NCBI GenBank assembly: GCA_009692005.1
Contig: SHZZ01000033.1
Span: forward strand, 1 to 40,413
Source of the DNA: Gemmataceae bacterium
GTDB taxonomy: Bacteria > Planctomycetota > Planctomycetia > Gemmatales > Gemmataceae
Length of the DNA: 40,413 nucleotides
Reading direction: 5' to 3'
The translations under genes were made by a program, and so were the position numbers. Of the stretch, positions 14,919 to 39,970 are shown in pieces; position 1 is the stretch's first letter, and every line of letters begins with the position of its first letter. The notes under the pieces were generated by a model. That model was given only the letters and a program-made list of their open reading frames with translations, was not told the DNA's origin and did not search any database.

Positions 14919-15281
14919 GCTTTCCTCGCTTTATTTAAGGGTAGTAACCGTTCCAGGGCCAGGTTGGAGATCCAAGAAACAGGGCGCTGAGGCGCCCAGC
15001 TCGCCAGTTTATAAGTGTGCAGCTTGAATAACTGTCAGTCGGCGGTTCCTTGGTAATTTCGAAATCCAAATAGCCCCGTGAATGATTACAAAAGGCAAAG
15101 ACCTCGAATACCAAATGCCGGAAGGTTTATCAAACAATTTCAGTAAGGGCCTCCCTGTTTACTCGTGTAAAGGGAATTTACCTGTGTCTTTCGGAATACG
15201 GGGCACGGTTTCCCTTTTCCTTTGTCCCTCGCCAGGAAAGCAGGGACAATAATTAGGTTGTTCCTTAAGGGGATGCTTCCG
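14919..15281. other. Intergenic region with a small GC hairpin; divergent upstream regions
   Basis: About 360 bases separate the RraA-like start (minus) from the small membrane protein (plus). A 6-bp hairpin (GGGCGC-TGAG-GCGCCC, 14982-14997) is present. I see no gene, no tRNA-like fold and no convincing promoter hexamers. Confidence 0.4.
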
Positions 15282-15590
15282 ATGATGAATTACCTCCTGG
15301 CAGTATTGTGGCTCCTGATCGGTGCAGGTTTGTTCCTTTATCCCATGTTTACCAATGACCAACGCATGCTGATCCGCCTGGGGGAAGGAACGAAATTTAA
15401 TGCCGGTTGGCTGGCTCTGTTGTTGGCGCTTTGGAATGGGGTTCGCATCTGGTCGAGGTTCTCGCAGGAGGCCCTTGCGCAAAAACAAAGGGAGGTCATG
15501 GTGGAACGGGAAAAACGCCACCAGGAAGAACCCCCGGTAACCAACCCGCAATTCCGTTTCGACAAACCGGAAGACCAGCCAAAGAAATAG
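15282..15590 (+). CDS. Small two-helix membrane protein, unknown function
   Basis: The 102-residue protein has two hydrophobic segments: residues 3-20 (NYLLAVLWLLIGAGLFLY) and about 40-56 (AGWLALLLALWNGVRIW). A charged tail rich in Lys, Arg and Glu follows. The preferred start is the ATG at 15282, about 9 nt after AAGGGG; ATGs at 15273 and 15285 are alternatives. The family is not one I recognise. The next gene starts about 180 nt downstream behind its own candidate promoter, so it is probably transcribed separately from the cytochrome c biogenesis operon. Confidence 0.7.
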   Translation: MMNYLLAVLWLLIGAGLFLYPMFTNDQRMLIRLGEGTKFNAGWLALLLALWNGVRIWSRFSQEALAQKQREVMVEREKRHQEEPPVTNPQFRFDKPEDQPKK

Positions 15591-15773: not shown

Positions 15774-16844
15774 ATGATATCGCGGAACTGTAATTTATCT
15801 TGGTTGGCGCTGACCCTTGCTTGCGTTTTCCTTCTTGGAGGCTGCCAAAAAGAGGAAATCACTTCTTACGAAGTGAAAAGGCTAGCGCCGCCAGCGGGGT
15901 CAAACAGCGGCCCGGCCCGGATTCTCGGCGGGATCTTCCCGCGCCAGGATGCCACTTGGTTTTTCAAATTGATGGGCCCGGCTGAAACGGTTGCAAAGCA
16001 TCTGGAACCGTTCAACCAATTCATCCGCACCGTGGAATTCTCGCAGCCGGAAGCCACGCCACCCGTTAAATGGGCAACCCCCAACGGTTGGAAAGCCGGC
16101 CCGGCCTCGGATTTGCGCTTCGCCTCATTCCTTTTGGAAGAAGAAGGCGCCATCAAACTCGAACTCACGGTGATCAAGCTGGGAAAAGAATCGGGCGGGT
16201 TGTTGGCTAATGTCAACCGCTGGCGGGACCAAGTTGGCCTCCCCCCCGTGTCGGAAGCCGCTTTGCCTAAGTTGGCTGTGAAAGAAAACATTCACGGGTC
16301 AGATGCCTTCCTGGTTGACTTAACAGGCCCGGGGAAAAAGGGGCCTTCCATGCCCCCGTTTGCAAAAACCAATCCACTGCCCAGGCCTCCGGCGCCAAGT
16401 CCCGAAGGCATGCCTGCAGTCAAGGAATTCCGCAAACCCGGGTCGTGGGAACAGGTGAAGAATTCTCCCCTAAGCGTGGCCACTTTCCGCCTCCAGGATC
16501 AAAAGGGAAAAATGGATGTCACGGTGACGCCGCTTTCTGGCCGGGCGGGGGGTATGGGGGAAAATGTCAACCGCTGGCGTGGGCAAATCGGCTTGCCCCC
16601 ATGGACGGCGGAAGAGTTGCACAAGAACACCCGGAAAATTCAGGCCGGCCCACTGGAAGCCCAATGCGTGGACCTGGAAGGAAGCTCCGGGCCAGGGCAA
16701 GAACGCCTTTTAGGGGCGATTCTTGAGAACGGTAACGACACCTGGTTTATCAAAGCCCGCGGCCCAGCAGAGTTAGCCGCCAGCCAAAAACAGGCGTTTG
16801 AACAATTCGTTTCGTCCTTGCGTTTTGAAGAGGGGAGAAAATGA
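15774..16844 (+). CDS. Lipoprotein with internally duplicated domains, first gene of ccs operon
   Basis: The 356-residue protein starts with a lipoprotein signal peptide ending in LLGGC (lipidated Cys24). The mature part contains two kinds of repeats in mirror order. Segment A (about 47-90, LGGIF...TWFFKLMGPAE...FNQF) matches segment A' (about 309-353, LGAIL...TWFIKARGPAE...FEQF). Segment B (about 97-185, with VNRWRDQVGLPP at 147-158) matches B' (about 219-303, with VNRWRGQIGLPP at 265-276). A proline-rich linker joins B to B'. I do not know the function. The stop overlaps the ResB start by 4 nt (ATGA), so it is translated with the cytochrome c biogenesis genes and may be an assembly or heme-handling accessory (inference). 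Confidence 0.82.
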   Translation: MISRNCNLSWLALTLACVFLLGGCQKEEITSYEVKRLAPPAGSNSGPARILGGIFPRQDATWFFKLMGPAETVAKHLEPFNQFIRTVEFSQPEATPPVKWATPNGWKAGPASDLRFASFLLEEEGAIKLELTVIKLGKESGGLLANVNRWRDQVGLPPVSEAALPKLAVKENIHGSDAFLVDLTGPGKKGPSMPPFAKTNPLPRPPAPSPEGMPAVKEFRKPGSWEQVKNSPLSVATFRLQDQKGKMDVTVTPLSGRAGGMGENVNRWRGQIGLPPWTAEELHKNTRKIQAGPLEAQCVDLEGSSGPGQERLLGAILENGNDTWFIKARGPAELAASQKQAFEQFVSSLRFEEGRK

Positions 16845-18148
16845 GCCTGGATCAAAACACTCCTGAAGCGCCCCGAGAACAAAGTTTTAAAAAGGGTTTT
16901 CTCCTGGCGGTCAAAGCCATCGCCTCGCTTCGCCTTACAGTTTCCTTGTTTGTTCTTTCGTTTTTTCTGGTCTTTGTTGGGACCTTGGCCCAGGTCGAAA
17001 ACCCGACCTGGACAGTGGTCACCGACTATTTCCGCTCCCTCGTGGTCTGGGTGCCGAACCAGTTGCTGGCCCGTTTTTGCCAAACCTTCCGCTGGATTTC
17101 CCCCACGGCGCAATGGCCAGGCGGGTTCTTTTTCCCAGGCGGGTGGACTTTGGGTTCTCTGCTGCTGATTAACTTGCTGGCCGCCCACTTGATGAAGTTT
17201 CAACTCTCCTGGCGGCGCTCGGGCATCCTGCTGATCCACGCCGGACTGATCCTCCTCATGGTCAGCGAACTGGTTACCGGTCTTTTTGCGGTCGAAGGAA
17301 ACATGACCATCGAGCAAGGCGGTGCGGCGAATTACCTAGAGTTGCGGGAAACCTCCGGGTTCCTCGGCAAGATCAACGGACCGGAACTGGCTTTTTCCGA
17401 CCCCTCCAATCCCGATAAGGAAAATGTCACAGTCATTCCCAACCGTATTCTCCGCCAGGGGGGAAAGATCTCCCACCCCGCCCTCCCCTGCGATGTGGAA
17501 GTGATCTCCTACATGGCCAACTCGACACTGAAAGAGATTGATCCGGAATCGCCTGAGGCAAAATCCAACCCGGCCAGCAAAGGCGATGGTTTGCAATTCA
17601 AGGGGGTTGACAAAAAAGAGATGTCCGGCACAGCCAAGGACCAAAAAGTCGATATCCCCTCGGCTTACATTCAACTGAAAGACAAAGCCACGGGGCAATC
17701 CCTGGGGACTTACCTGGTTTCCCTGTGGTTATCCCTTTCAACTGTGAAACAAACCCAGGAAGTCACACTGGCGGATGGGAAAAAACTCGACCTGGCCCTG
17801 CGTTTTAAAAGGGCCTACAAGCCCTACACCGTGGAATTGCTCGAATTCAAGCACGAGGTCTACTTGGGGACCACCAAACCCAGAAATTTCTCCAGCCGGG
17901 TGAAACTCCTGGCGGAACAACCGGACGATTCACGCGAAACCTTGATTTCAATGAACAACCCGTTGCGGCATGCCGGTGAGACTTTTTATCAATCTGGTTT
18001 CCTCCCGGGAGACAAGGGGACCATTCTGCAAGTGGTGCGCAACCCCGGCTGGTTGATTCCCTATTTTTCCTGCTTTCTAGCTGCCCTGGGAATGCTGATC
18101 CACTTTGGCCAGCACTTGAACTCGTTTTTGGCAAAGAGGAGGGGGTAA
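16841..18148 (+). CDS. resB: ResB/Ccs1-like cytochrome c biogenesis protein
   Basis: The 435-residue membrane protein is the ResB (Ccs1) half of the System II cytochrome c synthase, which carries heme across the membrane and attaches it to CxxCH apocytochromes with CcsA. The sequence shows the family N-terminal helix with LRLTVSLFVLSFFLVFVGTLAQ features (about residues 27-48) and a helix pair containing IHAGLILLMVSELVTG (about 128-145). A large periplasmic domain (about 150-395) ends in ETFYQSGF, and a last membrane helix sits near 400-425. It overlaps the lipoprotein gene by 4 nt and is 1 nt from CcsA, so coupled translation is almost certain. Confidence 0.9.
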   Translation: MSLDQNTPEAPREQSFKKGFLLAVKAIASLRLTVSLFVLSFFLVFVGTLAQVENPTWTVVTDYFRSLVVWVPNQLLARFCQTFRWISPTAQWPGGFFFPGGWTLGSLLLINLLAAHLMKFQLSWRRSGILLIHAGLILLMVSELVTGLFAVEGNMTIEQGGAANYLELRETSGFLGKINGPELAFSDPSNPDKENVTVIPNRILRQGGKISHPALPCDVEVISYMANSTLKEIDPESPEAKSNPASKGDGLQFKGVDKKEMSGTAKDQKVDIPSAYIQLKDKATGQSLGTYLVSLWLSLSTVKQTQEVTLADGKKLDLALRFKRAYKPYTVELLEFKHEVYLGTTKPRNFSSRVKLLAEQPDDSRETLISMNNPLRHAGETFYQSGFLPGDKGTILQVVRNPGWLIPYFSCFLAALGMLIHFGQHLNSFLAKRRG

Positions 18149-18149
18149 C

Positions 18150-19877
18150 ATGATTGCAAGCAAGCCGAGCTGGCTGGCTCCCCTGATCACGGTTGCAATC
18201 GCTTTTGCTTACCTGGGATACGCCGCCTCACCCAAGGCCGATCCCGCTGACGGTTTTCATTTTCAGGAATTCGCCAGCCTTCCCGTGGTCGATGGCGGGC
18301 GAGTCAAGCCGATGGACACCTTTGCCCGGGTTAGCTTGATGGTGATCAACGATGGCGTGCAATCCTACCAGGATGAAAAAAAGGTATCCCAGCCGGCGGT
18401 GAAATGGCTGCTGGAAGTCATGACCAGCCGGTTCGTGGAAAACCCCGTGGCGGAAAATCTTAAAGTATTCCGTATTGAAAACGACCAACTTCTGGGATTT
18501 TTGGGCCTGAGCCAAAGGCCGGGGTTGCGCTATTCCATAAATGAAATCGCAAGCAAATTTAAAGTTTTAGAAGAGCGGGCCATTGCCGCCGAGCGAAAAG
18601 ATCCCGATAAACTCGATGCCCTTGATAAAAGTGTGATCCAACTCGCCAAGCATTTGCAAATCCACATCGATATCGCCACCCATAGGGCGCCCCTTTTGAT
18701 CCCGGCAAACGGCGACTGGAAACCCTTCATGCAAGCCGCCATGGAATCCCGTGCGGAAGAGCGGCCCGACCCGGCGGTCAATTCCTTCGGGAAAATACTC
18801 ATGGCCTTCGGCGATGGGAAGCCGAAGGAATTCAACGCTGCCCTGGCGGATTATCAAAGTCAAATCGAAGGAAAAATCCCCCCCCAGCAGCGCATCTCTG
18901 GCCTGGAGGTTTCCTTCAACCACTTCTCCCCGCTGAGTCAGTGCATTTATTTATATGTTGTCGTATTCCTCCTTACCTGCGTTGGCTGGGTATCCTGGAG
19001 GGAGAGCCTGAATAGTGCCGCGTTTTGGCTGGCGGTTGCCACTTTCATGCTACACACCTGCGCTTTGAGCGTCCGCATGTACATGCAAGGCCGACCCCCG
19101 GTTACCAACCTTTATTCCTCCGCAGTATTCATTGGCTGGGGATGCGTCTTGGGGGCCCTGGTTCTGGAATATTTGTACGCCAATGGCATTGGCAATTTGA
19201 AAGCCGCCATTACCGGAGCTTTGACGCTGCTAATTGCCAACCACCTGGCTGGGGAAGGCGACACCCTTGAGATGATGCAGGCCGTACTCGACACCAACTT
19301 TTGGCTGGCAACCCATGTCACCTGCATAACTCTGGGCTACACTGCAACTTTTCTGGCGGGTTTCCTGGGAATCTTTTACATTCTGCGCGGCACCTTTACC
19401 CCTTTCCAAACTCCGGAAGCGGGGAAGTCCCTGATCCGCATGACCTACGGAGTTCTCTGTTTCGCCATTTTCTTCAGCTTCGTCGGCACGGTTTTGGGCG
19501 GCATTTGGGCCGATCAATCCTGGGGCCGTTTCTGGGGCTGGGATCCCAAGGAAAATGGCGCCATGCTAATTGTCATTTGGAATGCTTTAATCCTGCATGC
19601 CCGTTGGGGAGGGCTGGCTCGCGACCGGGGAATTGCCCTTTTGGCCGTGGTGGGAAATATGGTCACTGGTTGGTCTTGGTTTGGCACCAATCAGCTTGGT
19701 GTCGGGCTGCATGCCTACGGGTTTAATGATACCCTGGCGAATGGCCTCACTTGGTTTTGGGCCTCGCAGTTGGGGGTGCTGGCACTGGGATTAATTCCCA
19801 CGAGAAACTGGTGGAGCAACCAGGTTCAAACCGCCGAGGCTGGTAAGCAAATCAAGCCCGGGATGCGGAAGGCCTGA
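18150..19877 (+). CDS. ccsA: CcsA/ResC-like cytochrome c synthase subunit with N-terminal periplasmic domain
   Basis: The 575-residue protein is the heme-handling half of the System II synthase. Residues about 30-255 form a soluble domain preceded by one membrane helix. From about residue 265 the CcsA core begins. It contains the tryptophan-rich heme motif SWGRFWGWDPKE (457-468), normally facing the periplasm, and candidate heme-ligand histidines at 302, 389 and 521 (GLHAYGF). Typical CcsA proteins are about 300 residues; the N-terminal extension is common in fused or planctomycete forms. It is the last gene of the coupled operon and probably matures CxxCH proteins such as the DUF1549/DUF1553 proteins encoded nearby. 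Confidence 0.93.
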   Translation: MIASKPSWLAPLITVAIAFAYLGYAASPKADPADGFHFQEFASLPVVDGGRVKPMDTFARVSLMVINDGVQSYQDEKKVSQPAVKWLLEVMTSRFVENPVAENLKVFRIENDQLLGFLGLSQRPGLRYSINEIASKFKVLEERAIAAERKDPDKLDALDKSVIQLAKHLQIHIDIATHRAPLLIPANGDWKPFMQAAMESRAEERPDPAVNSFGKILMAFGDGKPKEFNAALADYQSQIEGKIPPQQRISGLEVSFNHFSPLSQCIYLYVVVFLLTCVGWVSWRESLNSAAFWLAVATFMLHTCALSVRMYMQGRPPVTNLYSSAVFIGWGCVLGALVLEYLYANGIGNLKAAITGALTLLIANHLAGEGDTLEMMQAVLDTNFWLATHVTCITLGYTATFLAGFLGIFYILRGTFTPFQTPEAGKSLIRMTYGVLCFAIFFSFVGTVLGGIWADQSWGRFWGWDPKENGAMLIVIWNALILHARWGGLARDRGIALLAVVGNMVTGWSWFGTNQLGVGLHAYGFNDTLANGLTWFWASQLGVLALGLIPTRNWWSNQVQTAEAGKQIKPGMRKA

Positions 19878-20109: not shown

Positions 20110-22869
20110 TTATTTTTGCGCCAAGGTTGCAGGGTCCTTCATAAGAGGAGCGATAATATCGAGTTGCTCGATGGTTTCGCCTCCCGCAATGGTGCACATT
20201 GCCCGAAAAACCTCGGGAGTCACCTTCGCGGTGATCTTGCGAACTTTCCCATCGGCCATGACGGCGACGCCATAACGGGACTTTTCCTTGGCATCCAGGA
20301 AAATCAGGAAGGGTTCGAGTGCGTCAGCACCTTCGGAAACTCCCAGGATGGTAGCTCCACCGCCTGCTAGCCAGGGTTGGGCTCGGTCCAAAGAAACTAC
20401 CATCAGGGCAATGGTGTTGGCAGGCATATCCTTGATATCCTCAACTTTAGTTTGTCGATCATAGCCAAAGATCCCCAGTTTCTTTGCCGAGGCTTGGTCG
20501 ACCATCTGATACTCGGCGGCATCGAAGCCCAAGCCTGATATTCCCACGAAATTGGTCAACGCCGGTTCATGGGAACTGGTTCCAGGAGCCATGACGGTGT
20601 TGGGGGTTTGGTAAAGGAATTCGGGCACCACGATTCGGGCCACATTGGCGTTATGCCCGTCGGCCCAGGGTTTGGCCCGGTCGAGATTGCGGGAGAAAGG
20701 CGCCAGGTCGCCAATGCCAACATAGGGAAGCAATTCCGACATCCAGCCGACGCGTTTTTCCGGAGGAACACGAAGGCCAAACTTGGCTGTTTGACTCCCC
20801 TCTTTGGCTGTCCCCATGGGGAAGGCTTTATTGTTGGCAACATAAACCATCAGGGCCTTGGCCATGGGCGAGGCGCTTTGTCCCAGGAGTTTCAAACCCA
20901 GGTCGTTCTTTTGTTTAATAAACCCTTCGGCCATAACGCTTTCAAAATCCTTCAAGAAATTCTGAGGCAAATGCAAAGCGCCACCTACCATCATGATTGT
21001 CCCGGATTGCGGAATGTAAGTAACCTCGGCTCCAACAAGGCCATTTTTGGCCATGGGATTGCCACCACCGGGTCCACCGGGTCCGCCGGGCCCACCCGGT
21101 CCAAATTGTCCAAGGGGTCCACCCAGCCCGCCGGGGAATCTTCCGGGGGGATTTCCCTGGGCTGAAGTGTCCTCGGGAAGGTTATTTTCAAAGCGGGTTT
21201 CCACATCCAGTTTGAATTCCTTGAAGAGCAAATCGACTTTGGGCATGAACGGGCTTACCAATTTGGCAAAGTTGTAGCCGATTTTTTGATCTTTACTTCG
21301 AGCCATTAACAAAAACGACTGGGTTTCCGAATTCAATTTGGGGATCATCAGAAATACGGTATCGATTTTGGAATAACTGTTGAGTTGTTCCAAGGCTTCC
21401 TTGGGGAAAGGTGCGCCGTTGGGCAATTTCTGGGTTTCTAAATATGCCGTCAGCAGCGGAATAAGTGAGGCGTATTCTTTGACATCCAGACCGAAAGACA
21501 TGGCCAATTCGGAGTCGGCGCCAAGGCTTTGAGCGAGTGGCGTGGCAGGCAAATTGGAAAGGACCAAGCCGTGGGCCAAATTGGCAGGCAAGGTTTGAAA
21601 CAAATTTCCTCGAACTGCAGATGCCACCGGAGGCGGCTTGGGTTGATTGGGATCGCCGCCTTCGGCGCCGGGCCCCATTGGTTTTCCACCCGGGCCTGGA
21701 GGTCCGCCGCCTGCAATTGGAGGAGGTCCGCCCGCGCCCAGAGGCCCGCCCCCGCCCAAGGGGCCGCCCGGGCCCTGGGGGTTATTGGGATCGCTCATGG
21801 GTGGCGCAGGAGGAGGAGGAGGAGCGGATATTTTTTTGGGTTTGCCTTTATCCTTGCTCAAATAGTCATTCATTTTTTCCGGGGTGGCCATCACCACGGT
21901 GCGAGCATCGGCAAAAAACAGACTCAATTTTTCACCAGGCTCAAAGCTGCAAAGGGAAGTGCTAAGCGGGTCTAGGTTTTTCTTGACCTCATGCCAGATC
22001 AAACCTTCAATTGGCAACCCTTCGATCAGTCCTAACGATTCAATTAAGTGGTTTTTGTCAAACGCCTTGTCGGAACGGAGCACCGTCATTTTCCAATATT
22101 TTCTCAACATGGCCAAGGGATTGGGCAGAGAAGAAACCCCATTGGAAGCGTTCAGGATTTGGTCCATTTCATCCAGGCCCAGGCCAAAAGTCCGCTTGAA
22201 ATCCTCACGGGTAAAGGACCCAGGGGTATTCAACAGCGCCTTGGCCATAAGGCTGTCGAAGAAAGGCTTCATTTGAAGGACAGCAACCAATTTGGTGTCG
22301 TTGGGAAGTCGGTTAGAAGGGTCAGGATCGACGCCATCCGCTTTGGCAGGAGTTGGAACGGGGTCGCCTTTTTTCTCTTCCTTCTTGCCGCCTTCTTTTC
22401 CTTCCTCTTTATTTCCATCGCCCATTGGAGGCGCGTCATCTGTTTTGCCCCCCTTGCCGGAATTGGGGGTGGCCTTGCCCATGCGATCATCCTTGCCTGT
22501 GCCGGACGATCCACTACCCATGAGGAGCAAGGCGGCACCAATGGCAATAACCGCCAGGACGGCCACGCCAATCCCAATCATTAACATGGGGTTGGATTTT
22601 TTCTTGCCGCCCTTCTTCGCCTTCTCCTGAGATTCCGCGGCAGCGATTTCTTTCTTGGCTTTCACCGCGGCAGATTTCCCATCCACCTTGGTGTTACCTT
22701 TTTTCTCTTCCTTGCCCTTGGGTTTTTCTTCTTTGGAATTGGCTGGCGCTTCCACCTTGAATTTGTGCTTGCACTCAGGGCATTCCATTTTCTTCCCAAC
22801 TTGGGTGGGGTCGGAAATGGTCACCATCTCTTCGCAACCTGGACACTTTTGCTTGAAAGCGCCGGCCAT
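20110..22869 (-). CDS. Zinc-ribbon, transmembrane, Gly/Pro-rich protein with DUF1559-like C-terminus
   Basis: The 919-residue protein starts at an ATG behind a good AGGAG (9 nt spacing); the frame is open 60 nt further up without support. Order of parts: a zinc ribbon with Cys9, Cys12, Cys30 and Cys33; a Lys/Glu-rich, probably disordered stretch; one membrane helix (about 95-116); another charged region; a long soluble domain; and two Gly/Pro-rich tracts, the first reading PPPPPAPP and GPGGPLGGGGPLG, the second GPGGPGGPGG. The last 160 or so residues (FVGISGLGFDAAEYQMVDQA...YGVAVMADGKVRKI) resemble the end of DUF1559 proteins, with a DG near the end but not the exact H-X9-DG. Similar hybrid proteins occur in planctomycetes. 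The role is unknown, perhaps envelope structure. Confidence 0.85.
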   Translation of the reverse strand: MAGAFKQKCPGCEEMVTISDPTQVGKKMECPECKHKFKVEAPANSKEEKPKGKEEKKGNTKVDGKSAAVKAKKEIAAAESQEKAKKGGKKKSNPMLMIGIGVAVLAVIAIGAALLLMGSGSSGTGKDDRMGKATPNSGKGGKTDDAPPMGDGNKEEGKEGGKKEEKKGDPVPTPAKADGVDPDPSNRLPNDTKLVAVLQMKPFFDSLMAKALLNTPGSFTREDFKRTFGLGLDEMDQILNASNGVSSLPNPLAMLRKYWKMTVLRSDKAFDKNHLIESLGLIEGLPIEGLIWHEVKKNLDPLSTSLCSFEPGEKLSLFFADARTVVMATPEKMNDYLSKDKGKPKKISAPPPPPAPPMSDPNNPQGPGGPLGGGGPLGAGGPPPIAGGGPPGPGGKPMGPGAEGGDPNQPKPPPVASAVRGNLFQTLPANLAHGLVLSNLPATPLAQSLGADSELAMSFGLDVKEYASLIPLLTAYLETQKLPNGAPFPKEALEQLNSYSKIDTVFLMIPKLNSETQSFLLMARSKDQKIGYNFAKLVSPFMPKVDLLFKEFKLDVETRFENNLPEDTSAQGNPPGRFPGGLGGPLGQFGPGGPGGPGGPGGGNPMAKNGLVGAEVTYIPQSGTIMMVGGALHLPQNFLKDFESVMAEGFIKQKNDLGLKLLGQSASPMAKALMVYVANNKAFPMGTAKEGSQTAKFGLRVPPEKRVGWMSELLPYVGIGDLAPFSRNLDRAKPWADGHNANVARIVVPEFLYQTPNTVMAPGTSSHEPALTNFVGISGLGFDAAEYQMVDQASAKKLGIFGYDRQTKVEDIKDMPANTIALMVVSLDRAQPWLAGGGATILGVSEGADALEPFLIFLDAKEKSRYGVAVMADGKVRKITAKVTPEVFRAMCTIAGGETIEQLDIIAPLMKDPATLAQK

Positions 22870-22944
22870 GATCGGAACTCCTGATTTGGGAACGCACGGG
22901 CAAGCCCTGGAATGGGACAACACAGGCATCTTACCCTAAAAAGG

Positions 22945-32778: not shown

Positions 32779-33055
32779 CCATTTTTCCCTTTTATAGTAA
32801 CTTTTTGACCTATCCTGGGTTAGGGACAGTAGAGAGCCAAACCGCTCGCTTTTTTTCTCCCACCGGAAACTTTGGCAAGCTTTTTGCTCTGAAGTATGAA
32901 TCAAAACCCTGACCCGAATCGTCAAGAAGGTGGGGGAAAAAGCGAATAAAAGGTGCGAGGTCCAAAAAAGGAAACAGGACCATGAACCTTTTCCTCTTTC
33001 AAGCGTAAAGGAAAACGCCAAGAGTTTGGCGCCAGGAACTCAAAGGAACCCTGCT

Positions 33056-34732
33056 GTGTTATTCAATCAGATTGCACTGAAGCAACTGCAAAACCAACTG
33101 ACCCGCTTTGCTCCCTTGGGACGGCGGACCCAGCAAAAGGAACGCGCTGAGAAGTTTTTCCAGGAAATCGATCCGGCCAGGCAATACCCTTACCAGTTCA
33201 TCTGCTTCCGCATCACCGGTTACCGGCCCGATTCTTATCCCGATTTGCTGATCAGTGGCGAGGATTTGCGCCATGATCTCGCCCTGCTGATTCAAGCCCT
33301 GGCCAGCGGCCAGGCGGTGACTGAAACCGTTTACACGGTGGAGGAAGTCAGCAAGAAATGGAATGTCTCGACCAAGACCGTCCGCCGCTGGCGAAACTTG
33401 GGCCTGGTTGGGCAAAAAATCATCCGGGATGGCAAACGGAAAATCGGCTTCACCCAGTCGGAAATCGAGAAATTCGCAGCAGGGAACATCGAACGGATTG
33501 AAAAGGGCGGAAAGTTTTCTCAACTGTCCCTGGAGGAAAAGGCAGCCATTATTCGCCGCGCACGCCGCATGGCCCGGTTGACAAGCGTTAATTTGACCGA
33601 GATCAGCGTCCGCATCGCTCGGCGCATGGGCCGTTCGCCCGAGACCATTCGCTACACGATCAAGAACTTCGATATGGAAAATCCGGGAAGCGCCATTTTT
33701 CCCCAGCAGACAGGGCCGCTTTCCCAGGAATCGCGGAACACCATTTTTAACTCTTACCACAGGGGTGAAACAGTGGACACACTTTCCAAACGCTTTCAAC
33801 GCAACCGCGCTTCCATGTACAGGGTAATTAATGAAGTGCGAGCCGAGCGGCTCCTCGAGCAGCCCCTGGATTACATGTTTCACGATAGTTTCAACGACCC
33901 GGGGCTGGAACTAGCCATCCTGGCGCCGATGCCTGGCGAGGCCGAGTACGAGGAAAAGCACAGGAACATGAAGGCCCCCAAGGATGTGCCGATTGAATTG
34001 GCCTCTCTTTATGAGTTGCCACTTCTTTCCAAGGATCAAGAACAGCACCTGTTCCGCAAGATGAACTATTTGCGGCACCAGGCGGCCAAGCGGCGGGAAG
34101 AACTAAGCGGCGAGACCGGCCAGAGCGTGGATGCCGCCAAGGTCCGAGTCAAACGGCTCGATGAGATCGATGAATTGCTCCACCAGGCAAGCCTGGTCAA
34201 GGATCACCTGATCAGCGCCAATATGCGGCTGGTGGTCAACATTGCCAAACGGCATCAAGGGCAGGCGGAGAAATTCTTCGATCTGATTTCCGACGGGAAC
34301 ATGTCGCTGATCCGAGCTGTGGAAAAATTCGACTTCTCCCGCGGGTTCAAGTTCTCCACCTACGCCACCTGGGCCGTCATCAAGAATTTCGCCCGCAGCA
34401 TTCCGGGGGAAATTCATCAGCATGAACGGTTTGTCACCGGCCATGAGGAGGTCTTCAACCTAGCGCAGGATTACCGCACCGATGAACGGGAAATTCTCGT
34501 TCAACGGGAACGGGCCAACCTCAGCGTCAACCGCTTGCTGGATTACCTGGAACCCCGGGAAAGGGAAATCGTGCGCTTGCGCGCCGGCCTCGATACCTCG
34601 CAAAAGGAATCCACCCTGGAGGAAATCGGTCTGAAGTTCGGCATCACCAAGGAACGGGTGCGTCAGATTCACGCCCGCTCCATGAGGAAGCTCAGGGATA
34701 TTGTCGAGGACCGGCACCTGGAAATGCCATAA
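33056..34732 (+). CDS. Sigma-70 family factor with N-terminal helix-turn-helix modules
   Basis: The 558-residue protein has an unusual N-terminal half. Residues about 90-145 look like a MerR/excisionase-type HTH (TVYTVEEVSKKWNVSTKTVR, then RWRNLGLVG). Two further helical HTH-like segments follow at about 157-207 and 222-270. The C-terminal half is RpoD-like: region 1.2 at about 312-335, region 2 at about 379-458 (ANMRLVVNIAKRHQG, KFDFSRGFKFSTYATWAVI), and region 4 at about 492-557 (LEEIGLKFGITKERVRQIHA, then RSMRKLRDI). Region 3 seems reduced. The GTG at 33056 follows AAAGGA with 8 nt spacing; the frame is open to a GTG at 32930, which would add a charged, low-complexity 42-residue extension. 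It probably directs transcription of a specific regulon and may bind DNA through the extra HTHs. Confidence 0.88.
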   Translation: MLFNQIALKQLQNQLTRFAPLGRRTQQKERAEKFFQEIDPARQYPYQFICFRITGYRPDSYPDLLISGEDLRHDLALLIQALASGQAVTETVYTVEEVSKKWNVSTKTVRRWRNLGLVGQKIIRDGKRKIGFTQSEIEKFAAGNIERIEKGGKFSQLSLEEKAAIIRRARRMARLTSVNLTEISVRIARRMGRSPETIRYTIKNFDMENPGSAIFPQQTGPLSQESRNTIFNSYHRGETVDTLSKRFQRNRASMYRVINEVRAERLLEQPLDYMFHDSFNDPGLELAILAPMPGEAEYEEKHRNMKAPKDVPIELASLYELPLLSKDQEQHLFRKMNYLRHQAAKRREELSGETGQSVDAAKVRVKRLDEIDELLHQASLVKDHLISANMRLVVNIAKRHQGQAEKFFDLISDGNMSLIRAVEKFDFSRGFKFSTYATWAVIKNFARSIPGEIHQHERFVTGHEEVFNLAQDYRTDEREILVQRERANLSVNRLLDYLEPREREIVRLRAGLDTSQKESTLEEIGLKFGITKERVRQIHARSMRKLRDIVEDRHLEMP

Positions 34733-34784: not shown

Positions 34785-36071
34785 TTATCCCAGAAGTATG
34801 GCCTTACCGCCATCGGTGATGGGCACGGGGCGGTCGCCATCATAGAGGTTGCCCTCAGGGTTGATCCCCATGGCGGCGTGGATGGTGGCGAAGAAATCGG
34901 CAACGCTCACCGGGTCTTTGACCACTTTTTTGGCCAATTCATCAGTCTCGCCGTGAGCCCCGCGATGCCGCAATCCACCGCCTGCCAATAACACACTGAA
35001 AGCTTTGGATTGGTGGCCACGGCCGCCACCGCCATCGAATTCCGGCGGGCGGCCAAATTCCGTGCTGATCGCCACCAAGGTCTTGTCGAGCAGTTTTCTT
35101 TTCTCCAAATCCGTGATCAGCGCGGCCAGGGCCTGGTCTAATTCGCGGATGAGAAGGTGCTGGTTGAGTATGCCTTCATTGTGCACATCCCAACCGGTGC
35201 CGTTGACGAAATTCAAGTTGTGGGAAACTTCAATAAAGCGCGTGCCGCGCTCGATCAATCTGCGCGCCAAGAGGCATCTTTGCCCGAACTCGCCGCCATA
35301 GGCTTGGCGTAAAGAGGCAGGTTCCTCATCCAGCTTGAAAACGCGGTTAAAAGAAGGCCCGGCCAAACGAATGCTTTGCTCCAAAGCGGCCTCATAATCC
35401 GCCATTTCCCTGGACGGGCCTTTGAGAGAATTCACCCGACGCAATTCCCGCAGCAAGGCCTGTCGGCGGTCGCTGCGAGCGGGGGTGACGAATTCCGGCC
35501 GAGACAAACCGGCTGGTCCACTTTCCGTATCGGTCAGGTAGAGGAAATTGTGGGCAGCCCCAAGAAACCCAGGTCCGCGGGTTATATTAGGATAGCCAAT
35601 CAGGACATAAGTCGGGGCTGCATCCCCACCAGGTCCGCGCTGATGGGAAACAATAGACCCAACGGAAGGGTATACCGCCGTGCCGCTTACAGGCCGGCCG
35701 GTGTGCATGCGATTTACCGCTGCCGCGTGTTCATCAATGACATCATGGTTAATGCTGCGGATAGCGGTCATGCGGTCCATGATGCGGGCGGATTTTTCCA
35801 GGTGTTCACAAACGCGCACTCCCTGAACCGCAGTGTCAATGGCCTTGTAATAGGAGCCGGGGATTTTCTTTTTCGCGTCCCCCAGTTTTTTCGGGTCGAA
35901 GGAATCAGTCTGGCCAATTCCGCCACCCAGCCAGATGTAAACACAATGCTCGGCCTTGCCCAAGTTGGGCTTGGCCAAAACGGCCTTGGCCAAAGACGGA
36001 CCGGCCAAGTACAAGCCAGCCGTGCCAGCCAGGAATCCGCGACGAGAAAATTTTTGCATGCTTTGCATCAT
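34785..36071 (-). CDS. DUF1501 domain protein, Tat-exported (second copy)
   Basis: The 428-residue protein starts at an ATG whose ATGA overlaps the stop of the upstream DUF1549/DUF1553 gene. It has a short twin-arginine signal ([12 protein letters not shown], Arg10-Arg11). The core shows [20 protein letters not shown] near residue 45, TGWDVHNEG near 290, and a late [20 protein letters not shown] block near 340. It is a distant homologue of the first DUF1501 protein in this window. It lies downstream of its partner, the opposite of the first operon. It converges on the sigma gene with 52 nt between the stops and no clear terminator. Catalytic function is unproven for the family. Confidence 0.9.
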
Positions 36072-39000
36072 GGCATCCAGACAAATTCGGGAAGATTGAA
36101 CAGACTCCATACAGCATCCTCGGTACGCTCCCGCCATGCTGAATCCAATCGCCTACTGGGCTCGCTTCCAGCTCGGGCCCGTTTCTCCATTTCCAACTTC
36201 ACCCGGGTCGATTCATCCACCAGATGGTTTGTCCAGGAGATTCGCGGCAACCGTGGCGGAGGCGCAGGCGTGGCGGCCTCAAGCAAATTCCTTGAGAAAA
36301 ACCCCGGATCCAACAGGGTTAGAAAACGGGACTGCTCTTCCGCCGAGGGCATTCGCCCTAAAAAGCGCAGGAACAAATCTTCGGATAGCTGACCAGGAGA
36401 TTTGGCCTCGACCGCTGCGCGGGTCAGACCATTTTCCTCCGACAAGCGGGCAATCCAGCTTGCCAGAGTGCCGTTGGAAAGGATAGCTGGCTGCACCAGT
36501 TGCGCAGCCGATTCCCTGTCCGTGGCGGGGTTTTGCCTGGCGCCGCGCCACCCAAAGGCCTCCAGCACATCGATAACCGCCTGGGCCCTGGGCAAGGCCA
36601 GGCTGGGGCGATCCCGCTCGTTGGAAAGCGAGGTAAACTCCCAGGCCCGCTGGGGAAACCCAAGGGAAATCATGGTCGTTGCCGCCTGACGGCTGTCGGG
36701 ATCGAAGGTTATTTCCTCCACCTTCATTGGGAGTGAAGCGGCTGAGAAAAGGCTATCCACCACCTGCTCACCAGAAAGTCTCCGTCTGTCAGGAGCGTTG
36801 AAAAACCGTCGTTCCGCCGAAGAGGCCAGGTTGTTTCCCACAGGTTCCCGTTGGTAGGCGTGCGATTTCAGGATCAAGGCCAACACCGGCTTGAGCCGGT
36901 ATTCATTACGCACCAACTCACGGGCCAGCCAGTCGAGTAATTCCGCATGGCTGGCGGTTTTGTTTTCCCAATCCCAGGCCGGTTCCACCAGCCCGGCGCC
37001 TAGCAGCTTTTTCCAAAACCGGTTGACCAGCACCCGGGCAAACCGCTGGTTGGCTGGCGAAACCAAAATGGCTGCAAACTTTTCCCGCGAGTCGTTGGGG
37101 TCGGCAAGCCACTGCGGGGGAACCTGGTTCGGGGAAATTTCTGGAAACGGCCAAACGGGAGAAATTTTTTCCCCGGGCTTTAGGCTGGCCTTGATCAGCG
37201 ATTCCCGCGCTTTTTTCTCGAAAAAACCGGCCGGAACAGTGCTCGACTTTGGCAGCGCCGTTTGTTTCCTTTCCAGCATGGCTGAAATCTGGAAGAGATC
37301 CTTTTGCCGGGTTGAATGGAAGGGGGAATCATGGCAGCGGGCGCATTGCATCTCCACCCCTAAAAACGCCGTGCCCAGGATATGCGCCTTGGCAGCCATG
37401 GGAACATCGTTATCCGCCGCCATGCCAAAGCCGGCGCTCCCCCCCGATTGCGAGTTGCCGCGCATCATCACCAGTTCCGTAACAAAGCGATCAAGGGGTT
37501 TATCATCTTTTAAGGCATCGAGAATGAAAAAACGAAATGGTCCCGTGTTGTTCAAAGTGGGTTTTAAAATATTGGGGTTCTCGGCCAGCACATCCTGCCA
37601 GTAGCTGACCCAATGGCCGGCGAAGCGCTGGTCGGCAAGCAGCCGGTCGATAACCAAATTTCTTTTTTCCGCCCGAGTGTCGTTTAGGAAAGCGCGGATT
37701 TCTTCAGGCGAAGGAGGCAGGCCAACCACATCGAGGAAAACCCGGCGAAGGAAAGTTGAATCGGAAGTCAAAGGGGCGGGTGCAATTTGGCCCGCGGTCA
37801 ACGGCTCGGACGGCCATTGGGCGCCCGAGCCAATCCACTTTTCCACCACGGCGATTTGCCCAGGCGTGAGCGGTTTCCCCGATGGGGGCATCGGCTCGGC
37901 CGACTTGGGGTCGATGCGAGCCAGCAAATTCGATTTCCCTGTTTGACCGGGCACGATCGCCAGTTTCCCGGAGTTGCCTGCCCTGAGCGCGCTTTCACGA
38001 GTGAAGAGTTTCAACCCCCCCTTCACTTTTTCCCCATGACAGCGGAAGCAATTCTCCCGCAATATATCCAGCGCTTCATGAGCAGTGCCGGTTTTCTCAC
38101 CCCCCGAGACCAGGGTTCCCCTGGCTTGCTGCATTTTTTGATTGAGGAACTGGTCCACTTCATTGTTACTGGGAAGCCCTTGAATGCCTGAGGGAACCTT
38201 TGGGCCTGGGTGCATTCGCGCCCATTCCCGCGAGGCCACGGCCCGCATGGCCCAATAGGCATCGCGGCTAGAAGCCAACTTTCTTCGGTTGCGATCATCA
38301 ACCTGAGTAAGTTTCTTTTCCATTTCTTGGCATGCCTTTTCCCAGCCCGCATCGGTCAGCCAAAAAATCTCCTCAAAAGGCGCTGGCTTGCCTTGATCCA
38401 AACTGGCGGTCTTATCCCCTTTTCCCGCTGCCAGAATGCGAAAATGTTTGTCCCCTTCCAACCGAATGGCCAGGCAGCATTCCCCCGTATCGTGGCGGAA
38501 TTTTTTCCCTCCCACCAGAGATTCAAAAACGACCTGGTGAATGCCTCCGGACGATTGAATTTCTACCAGCTTTTCTTTGTCGCCATAGCCGCACGGCCGA
38601 GCCAAGGGCTCAGGCGGGACCGGCACTGGCGCCAGCGCCTCGTGACCTCCCGTTTCCTTCGAATGGACCGGTGTGGTAGCTATCAGTTTTCCATCCAGCC
38701 ACATTCGCGAGGCGCCTTTCGATCGCACCAGAAGGGAATGTTTCCCCTTGGGCAGATCAATGCTGGCGGAGGCGCGCAAAGTCACCGTGCCGAGCCACGA
38801 ATCGCGGATGCCCCAGGAGTCGTAGCGCAACGGCAACCGGGGAAAGAGAAACCAGTTTTGCTCAATTTGCAAAGCGGGTTGGCCCAACTCCGCTGGGGTT
38901 TGCGGGAAATACTCGATGGAATTCCATCCTTCGTGAAGAGAAAGGGCCACACTGCCGCGCACCTGCAGGGAAGGAAAAAGGAGATCCACCTTTAAGGTGT

Positions 39001-39805
39001 TTTCTTCTGGCCCGACACGACGGTAGCGGCCGGCCATCACTTGATCGGCCACTCTGCCCCGGTGGATCCCCAGGTCGTCAAGCAAGCCGCGAAAGCTGTT
39101 GGAAGGCGAACCGCCCATGGAGGAGCCGATCCAGATGGCATCGTTATCGACCACGGGCTGGCGAACGGTGGCCCCGCCCATGTCCCACTCGCCTTTCAGC
39201 TGTTTTTTGCCATCGATCCAGGCGGTTGCGGAATTAGGCTCGCCAAAGGTGTAAGTCACGGCCACATGGTGCCAGCCGCTGCCCGGCTTGATTCCGTCGC
39301 TGGAGGTCCAGCGATGCCAGAGGCCGGGGTTTTCTTTTGAAGGCTGACTGGCAAAAAGAAAGCTCACCCGCGCAGTCCCATTGACTTCTCTGACGCGCAA
39401 GGCCCAGTTTTGGTTATCTTTGGGATAGGCGGGATTGTGGGTCCGCCCTTTCCCAACGATGTATAGATTTTCACCTTTTTTCATCTCTGAAATGTTTACC
39501 CACGACTCCAGAGTGATGGCATCGCCATTGGAAAAATCGAAGCGACTATTGTCGCCCGGGTCGGAAAAGGTAAAGCGCGACCCTTGGCCATCAAAGCGGA
39601 CGGCGGTATTGCCAAGGGGAAAGTCGGGAAAGGCCGGGGGGCGGGGGCCGGGTTGATCTCGGTGTACGCCGCCCACAGCTTCCAACCGGGTGGTTTCCTC
39701 CGTGCCGAATTGCCAAAAGGCCAGCGGTTCCGCCCCTGTGGCTGCCGCGGGGGCGGCCAAGAGGCAAGCCGTGAACCACCCCTTAATCATTGCGTCCAAG
39801 CGCAT
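36068..39805 (-). CDS. Large LamG, cytochrome-like (PSCyt1), DUF1549, DUF1553 protein
   Basis: The 1245-residue exported protein starts at ATG 39805, 5 nt after GGGGA, with a signal peptide (about 1-25, [16 protein letters not shown]). A LamG/concanavalin-like domain covers about 25-270 ([32 protein letters not shown]). A PA14-like beta stretch (about 280-480) follows. PSCyt1 is marked by CFRCHGE (Cys586, Cys589, His590) and [23 protein letters not shown]1549 (about 680-890) contains [10 protein letters not shown] (Cys821, Cys824, His825), and DUF1553 runs from about 930 to the end. Two CxxCH motifs suggest covalent heme. The glycan-type LamG domain fits the idea of a polysaccharide-binding surface protein (inference). 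It is the first gene of a two-gene operon with DUF1501. Confidence 0.92.
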
Positions 39806-39970
39806 GTTTTTCCCCAAAAATGCAAAATTTCCCACTTGGGAGATTTTAACAAATCCTTGCATTAGGAATGAAACTATTTTTACGGAAGGCCCGCAGGTCA
39901 GACAATTAGCCGGACCGTTTTAAGCTGGTCGTTCCCAGGGAAGAGGAAAAAGACGAGCCCGAAGGGCAAC

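Follow-up and report, generated by a model that had tools for sequence, protein, structure and literature searches.

A predicted lipoprotein encoded next to resB-ccsA in planctomycetes with a putatively circularly permuted Mog1/PsbP-like domain

The window, by which we mean the entire stretch of 40,413 nucleotides analyzed here, contains a gene on the forward strand (15774..16844, with an ATG start codon) for a putative lipoprotein of 356 amino acids, referred to as P0001, in which two kinds of segments follow each other in the order A-B-B'-A' (hereafter ABBA). The stop codon of this gene overlaps by 4 bases (ATGA) with the start of resB at position 16841, as had been described in an earlier, sequence-only reading of the same DNA, and the product of the latter gene (16841..18148, forward strand) was identified as ResB (CcsB) of System II by its match to PF05140 (E = 8.2e-18). 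The third gene (18150..19877, forward strand) codes for a CcsA-type cytochrome c synthase subunit, which matched PF01578 (E = 9.7e-19) and obtained 117.2 bits against TIGR03144, which is under the cut-off of 187.6. A Trp-rich motif, WGRFWGWDPKE, was recognized by eye in the CcsA-type protein; the role of the WWD motif in CcsA-type synthases is described in the part of the CcsB/A review that was available (PMC10663686). A small predicted membrane protein that matched no Pfam family above the cut-off is encoded 5' of the lipoprotein gene (15222-15590, forward strand), and may belong to the lipoprotein-resB-ccsA unit.

P0001 starts with a signal peptide (15774..15845, forward strand), in which the lipobox LGGC was read from the sequence and Cys24 is the residue predicted to be lipidated, in line with the earlier assignment of the protein as a lipoprotein. 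A lipobox-like N-terminus was observed in 131 of the 144 unique homologs whose genes adjoin resB. The segment that follows the lipidated cysteine, CQKEEITSYEVKR (15843..15881, forward strand), is predicted to be disordered, with pLDDT values below 50 at residues 6-19 of the mature window protein in the AlphaFold2 model.

Profiles for the A and B segments, which were iterated from the window protein and run on the stop-to-stop frames of the fetched loci, placed four segments along P0001, all on the forward strand: A1 at residues 49-89 (15918..16040; profile match 6e-19), B1 at residues 100-185 (16071..16328; 4e-26), B2 at residues 219-303 (16428..16682; 9e-27), and A2 at residues 311-351 (16704..16826; 7e-17). 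The segment order proposed in the sequence-only reading was thereby recovered, and the boundaries differed from those given there by no more than a few residues. The local alignment scores were 93 for A against A' and 132 for B against B', compared with means of 18.8 (sd 4.0) and 25.4 (sd 4.6) for shuffled sequences, and none of 2,000 shuffles reached the observed score in either case. A blastp comparison of one half of P0001 with the other agreed (E = 3e-17 for B/B' and 8e-11 for A/A'), and the cross-comparisons A/B, A/B', A'/B, and A'/B' yielded scores at chance against shuffles. The ABBA internal homology of P0001 is real.

In the C-terminal half, B2 and A2 are the first and second parts of a canonical unit. 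In the N-terminal half the order is permuted: A1, a β-hairpin followed by a helix (in mature-protein numbering, the AlphaFold2 model has strands at residues 25-33 and 37-46 and helices at 47-51 and 54-61), is located ahead of B1, which corresponds to the first part of a Mog1/PsbP-like unit and here comes second. The halves are connected by a linker (16344..16412, forward strand) that is predicted to be disordered, with pLDDT values below 50 at mature residues 168-190.

No Pfam family was matched by P0001 at E-values up to 1, and no NCBIfam family was matched. Likewise, when single BA, BABA, AB, and BABABA relatives were compared with Pfam, no family was matched at E-values up to 0.01. The Pfam matches of 14 BABA members were weak and confined to 1 or 2 members each, the best being to NPCBM_assoc (E = 0.013), and one BABA member matched Tsi3, a protein of Mog1/PsbP-like fold, with an E-value of 0.072. 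When P0001 and the profiles A1 and A6 were searched against PDB sequences, nothing significant was obtained; the sole row for profile A1 was the PsbP structure 2xb3 (E = 1.2).

The AlphaFold2 model of the mature window protein, based on an alignment of 24 sequences, had a pLDDT of 85.2 and a pTM of 0.53, and consisted of two domains modeled with confidence and joined by a disordered linker. For the B'A' half, the best Foldseek match was 2xb3, a cyanobacterial PsbP (E = 1.3e-6). Searches with VIA aligned this half to 3lyd (Z 12.7, rmsd 4.0, 142 residues aligned), LpqN (Z 12.6, rmsd 3.4, 147 aligned), Mog1 (Z 10.4, rmsd 3.8, 136 aligned), and 2xb3 (Z 10.3, rmsd 3.7, 133 aligned); the VIA matches were mostly inside model residues 187-331, and those with Mog1/PsbP-like fold names had Z scores from 8.2 to 12.7. 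B'A' is thus predicted to be a Mog1/PsbP-like domain with the ordinary chain order. B and B' were not predicted to adopt unrelated folds, an outcome that would have spoken against the sequence-only reading, but rather to have their strands and helices in the same order.

To represent the permuted order we used a natural protein with a single A-B unit (L074), which was aligned with the AB stretches of 49 other loci and modeled with a pLDDT of 91.8 and a pTM of 0.85, values that suggest one compact domain. The succession of strands and helices in this model was that of B'A', except that the hairpin and helix of A came first. A Foldseek search of the PDB, which follows the chain order, gave no match at E-values up to 0.001, the best VIA Z score was 4.1, and no Mog1/PsbP proteins were among the matches listed by either program. 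Most of the top Foldseek rows were fluorescent proteins, the best with an E-value of 0.038, and these were discarded. Circular permutation would be expected to produce just such a case, a confidently modeled domain whose parts are each homologous to those of a known fold but which a chain-order search misses. We infer the same fold for AB and BA from the sequence homology and from the order of the predicted secondary structure elements.

To describe how the two orders are distributed, we compared the architectures in relatives. P0001 had matches at E-values up to 0.001 in 44 of the 59 genomes in a planctomycete sample, with its own genome counted and with some of the relatives containing B-A only. 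Directly 5' of resB-ccsA, the window's class contained mostly ABBA and AB proteins and once ABAB, and the sampled Verrucomicrobiota and other planctomycete classes contained BA, BABA, and once BABABA. The permuted forms located directly 5' of resB in the 59 genomes were 24 ABBA, 13 AB, and 1 ABAB protein (G006). The BA proteins in this sample were mostly encoded away from resB, with two exceptions, one beside the second ResB of G004 (L044) and the other beside a divergent ResB of G023 (L051).

A scan of contigs resulted in 577 confirmed loci, the best 80 of which comprised 29 BABA, 49 ABBA, and 2 loci cut by contig ends (L136, which reads BBA, and L160, which reads AB, are cut in this manner). 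All but one of these 29 BABA loci were from records labeled as Verrucomicrobiota or a subgroup thereof (28 loci), the remaining one being labeled Planctomycetota (L137), and these 49 ABBA loci were mostly from planctomycete-labeled records. Another 40 loci were obtained from 292 planctomycete genomes. Here, classes other than that of the window contained BABA, BA, and once BABABA, and the window's class contained ABBA, or BA in three genomes (L192-L194); ABBA was also present in two genomes of family f55 (L173, L174), which are grouped outside the window's class. The pairs L214/L108 and L217/L107, whose members are located on contigs of equal length, were each counted once, and L069, L078, L082, and identical sequences were left out of the domain statistics. 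It was also noted that the resB locus of a metagenome-assembled genome titled Candidatus Kuenenia stuttgartiensis (L094) is almost identical to that of an uncultured Planctomycetaceae (L093), and the label of the former record is probably wrong.

A few of the individual proteins are of interest in their own right. The BABABA protein encoded directly 5' of resB-ccsA at L182:1457-3025 (forward strand) contains three units and is the only one seen. The ABAB protein at L034:3458-4654 (reverse strand), found in one genome, corresponds to the permuted unit duplicated in tandem. The window's own genome contains a short BA paralog away from resB on contig C35 (L002:1396-1944, forward strand), which has a signal-peptide-like N-terminus without a lipobox and is followed by a gene that we take to be queA-like; stand-alone BA proteins of this sort are present in many relatives.

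These comparisons of domain order indicate that B-A is the older, ancestral unit, present once or more per protein. The segment after the lipidated cysteine has a family form that is roughly C..xE[IV]xxYxVPK, and the strict form of the motif was found in 81 of the 144 unique homologs, in permuted and canonical proteins alike (44 of 73 ABBA, 18 of 45 BABA, 11 of 12 AB, 6 of 11 BA, and both the single ABAB and the single BABABA protein); it is missing from many BABA proteins of other planctomycete classes. Since proteins of both orders share the position, the anchor, and the motif, they appear to be encoded by one and the same gene in which the first domain was permuted. Profile comparisons agree in part with this view. 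The large majority of the canonical BABA units preferred the profiles of the second ABBA half (44 and 45 of 48 for B in the two units, and 43 and 41 of 48 for A), and the A segments of the AB-only proteins preferred the profile of the first ABBA half in 12 of 13 cases, with no such preference for their B segments (5 of 13).

A phylogeny inferred from ResB and CcsA of 144 unique loci, excluding 4 loci with short ResB/CcsA segments and 8 copies, requires the order to have switched between permuted and canonical no fewer than 3 times, although the tree was built quickly, has many open forks, and is without an inferred root. Such a number would be in keeping with a single origin of the permutation followed by losses.

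The lengths of the linkers were also compared. In the ABBA proteins (n = 76), the median lengths were 8 amino acids between A1 and B1 (interquartile range 7-9), 39 between B1 and B2, and 7 between B2 and A2, and the linker from A to B in the AB-only proteins was 9 amino acids (n = 13). In the BABA proteins (n = 48), by contrast, the median from the first A to the second B was 32.5 amino acids, and the two B-A joints were 12.5 and 12 amino acids long. Hence, A and B are closely joined in the first ABBA domain, and the long linker is found at the new domain boundary, so that the linker lengths invert as a permutation predicts. Furthermore, the first and second parts of the AB and BA units are reciprocally homologous, as expected for a permutant at the sequence level. 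We consider it highly probable that, in the lineage of the window, circular permutation has turned the N-terminal B-A domain into A-B and left the C-terminal unit in the original order. The permuted fold, one of two explanations offered in the sequence-only reading, has thereby gained support from the architectures of the relatives, the linker lengths, and the structure prediction.

The other explanation offered was that three tandem B-A units lost the first B and the second A, a route that would produce the same permuted domain as the outcome in terms of fold. In favor of this proposal, the natural three-unit protein at L182 is encoded at the same locus and the number of units varies between BA, BABA, and BABABA. 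No ABABA or similar intermediate was present among the architectures seen. Nor did the profile preferences give a sign that A1 and B1 come from different units: A1 was divided between BABA units 1 and 2 by 32 to 41, and B1 preferred BABA unit 1 in 62 of 76 proteins. The short A-B joint is also unlike the long A-B linker of the BABA proteins, and we regard loss from three units as a rather unlikely route to the permuted order.

A different possibility is that the two halves are swapped, such that A1 completes B2 and A2 completes B1, which would result in two intertwined Mog1/PsbP-like folds of the ordinary type within one chain. Domain-swapped dimers are formed by the Eag chaperones of the same fold, according to the part of the source available (PMC12881460). 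We also examined covariation by mean-field DCA, for which 205 canonical units, 90 AB units, and 76 proteins of the ABBA type were used. For the contact pairs of the canonical domain, the coupling of A1 with B1 was slightly below that of A1 with B2 in 7 of 8 comparisons on the 76 ABBA sequences, a slight lean toward a swap. In the AB units, the canonical A-B pairs had a mean percentile of 0.60 to 0.65, where 0.5 is expected, with no null run for this value and with the second halves of ABBA proteins included in the canonical set.

An R/D pair at the hairpin between B and A was also considered. The two residues are strongly associated in the canonical units, where R occurred with D in 71 of 129 cases, and in the second half of the ABBA proteins D was present in all 21 cases with R. 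In Fisher tests that ignore kinship, the association was weak for A1-B1 (p = 0.068), and the p-values of A1-B2 and of the cross pair A2-B1 were 0.35 and 0.038, respectively; the last value indicates that kinship alone can generate p-values of this size, and there were too few independent pairs for the association to be evaluated on the ResB and CcsA tree. Taken together, the covariation data on the pairing of A with B are underpowered and in part unfavorable to A1-B1, leaning slightly against it.

However, several observations argue against a swap. AB-only proteins are encoded at the same locus (13 loci, 12 of them unique), one of which is predicted to be compact with a pTM of 0.85. The linker between A1 and B1 is short and constant at 8 amino acids and that between B1 and B2 is long. 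Finally, 30 of the 76 ABBA proteins have lost both R and D from A2/B2 and retained R and D/N in A1/B1, kinship again being ignored. Even so, AB-only proteins could swap segments between the chains of a dimer. On balance, an intertwined arrangement within the chain seems quite improbable to us.

We then surveyed the association between the lipoprotein gene and resB. In the planctomycete sample of 59 genomes, which includes the window's own genome, 39 genomes contained a strong ResB match (E-values of at most 8.1e-46), and in 38 of these the gene for a permuted lipoprotein was located directly 5' of resB on the same strand; in the 39th genome (G030, L081) the contig ends inside resB. The other 20 genomes contained no permuted form at E-values up to 0.001, only BA forms. 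In a sample of 79 genomes from Verrucomicrobiota, a match of BA or BABA type was located directly 5' and on the same strand, as judged by coordinates, at all 23 full-length ResB loci, which were found in 21 genomes. Of the remaining 58 verrucomicrobial genomes, three (G351, G364, G397) combined a BA-type match with a ResB match that was weak, split, and located on a different contig, and 6 in which ResB was matched only weakly, in a frame of about 900 amino acids, contained no match of BA or BABA type.

The resB gene also adjoined the lipoprotein gene in 76 of the best 80 of the 577 loci (3 were cut by a contig end and 1, L142, lacked it) and in 39 of the 40 further planctomycete loci (all except L195), although these two sets of loci were chosen by the lipoprotein itself. 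With copies included, resB was adjoining at 156 loci and not at 24, a count that leaves out L002 as well as L082, which overlaps the place of L051. Because the sampled genomes are related to each other, none of these counts is independent. The gene is nevertheless found next to resB in the relatives, where its absence would have spoken against the sequence-only reading, and the neighborhood and the co-occurrence both back the suggestion in that reading of a System II candidate. We regard a link of the lipoprotein to System II as probable, with good confidence.

A fused ResB-CcsA protein in G058 (L038:3907-7941, reverse strand) was found to contain a B-A unit inserted in ResB, between what look by eye like its first two membrane segments. 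This insertion was seen in 1 of 147 chains, comprising the 144 of the tree and 3 new ones, and thus in one species; ResB of G146 (L213), which belongs to the same genus, contains no B-A insertion.

The lipoprotein might alternatively share an operon with resB-ccsA while working elsewhere in the envelope, in which case the conserved neighborhood would reflect operon inertia. Stand-alone BA paralogs occur away from resB in many genomes, including that of the window, which implies that the domain is not exclusive to a role in System II, and three such paralogs in Verrucomicrobiota are from genomes without a full-length ResB. Set against this are the co-occurrence in two phyla, at 38 of 39 and 23 of 23, and the natural insertion of a B-A unit into ResB, so that operon inertia is in our view unlikely. 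The full explanation that best fits the data is that the protein is a lipoprotein partner of System II, composed of Mog1/PsbP-like domains of which the N-terminal one is permuted, and we assign a probability of roughly 60% to this reading.

As a partner of System II, the lipoprotein is probably an overlooked helper of the attachment of heme to cytochromes c, and it would then serve ResB-CcsA of Planctomycetota and Verrucomicrobiota as an accompanying subunit or assembly factor. Once exported and lipidated at Cys24, the protein would be located at the outer surface of the membrane containing ResB-CcsA. The segment after the lipidated cysteine is proposed to be a docking motif, with the flexible IxxYxVPK stretch docking on ResB or CcsA, and the PsbP-like domains on their disordered tethers would hold the apocytochrome or stabilize the periplasmic side of the synthase. 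If the domain serves as a tethered binding surface, moved termini would cost little, and this would account for the tolerance of the permutation.

Photosystem II has PsbP as one of its assembly partners, and the idea of a tethered assembly factor draws on such non-enzymatic partner roles of the fold, in PsbP and in Eag, as well as on the opening of a chamber in fused CcsBA. In the parts of the sources available, a dimer of Eag chaperones closes in a claw-like manner around a transmembrane segment (PMC12881460), and the periplasmic chamber of fused CcsBA opens and admits CXXCH (PMC10663686). We put forward this mechanism, docking on ResB-CcsA and holding of the apocytochrome or of the periplasmic side of the synthase, as a tentative suggestion.

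Given its position beside a heme exporter and synthase, the protein could instead be a heme chaperone that passes heme to or from ResB-CcsA. However, no His, Met, or Cys was found in the invariant or nearly invariant domain columns of the ABBA and BABA alignments, which makes heme handling unlikely, and a role as a heme chaperone is accordingly very improbable. ResA/CcsX and CcdA are the usual helpers of System II and would act on the same machine as P0001. Thiol reductases of the ResA/CcsX type have a CXXC active site, whereas P0001 is without CXXC, and thiol reduction is therefore also an unlikely function.

The B2A2 half of P0001 has the predicted fold, in the ordinary order, of the Mog1/PsbP-like proteins, which include PsbP, CyanoP, Mog1, DcrB, LpqN, and Eag. 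DcrB is itself a periplasmic lipoprotein of this fold, according to the part of the source available (PMC7716261). Unlike these proteins, the AB half of P0001 has its two parts exchanged. Both genes downstream of P0001 belong to a known system, CcsB/ResB-CcsA, which is usually described as consisting of CcsB, CcsA, and thiol-reducing proteins in the available part of the CcsB/A review, where no such lipoprotein is mentioned (PMC10663686). Nor is such a protein mentioned in the available part of a survey of System II in anammox bacteria, the main text of which contains the word "lipoprotein" 0 times (PMC4222556). Among the literature matches listed, as judged by the title and the start of the abstract and with few subscription journals covered, there was neither a PsbP/Mog1-like lipoprotein beside resB nor a permuted Mog1/PsbP fold. 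The fold and System II are already known, but our searches turned up neither a permuted version of this fold nor the near-constant third gene.

The chances seem to us about even for a broader reading, in which the ResB-CcsA of both phyla is a three-part machine with a PsbP-like lipoprotein, and in which one lineage fixed a permutation of exactly one of the two domains, at the same locus and after a similar docking motif, and later trimmed the protein to AB or BA alone or re-duplicated the unit to ABAB. If true, this would represent a natural experiment on the spread of a permutation in a working complex. The unpermuted relatives at the same locus in sister groups mean that the ancestral, the permuted, the single permuted, and the re-duplicated forms can be compared directly. 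Planctomycetes make large multidomain cytochromes, and a third neighbor gene that is near-constant in two phyla would fill a gap in the account of how apocytochromes are delivered to the synthase.

Several other genes in the window were also noted. A protein of 939 amino acids that is rich in Pro and Gly (20110-22929, reverse strand) has a DUF1559 match and an N-terminus that by eye resembles a zinc ribbon. A protein of 600 amino acids (32930-34732, forward strand) contains sigma-70 regions 2 and 4 after several helix-turn-helix matches, which is an unusual combination. Finally, at 34785-39862 on the reverse strand, a DUF1501 gene is located beside the gene for a PSCyt1/PSCyt2/PSD1 protein of 1264 amino acids with a lectin-like domain, and the latter protein may be one of the clients of the cytochrome c machinery.
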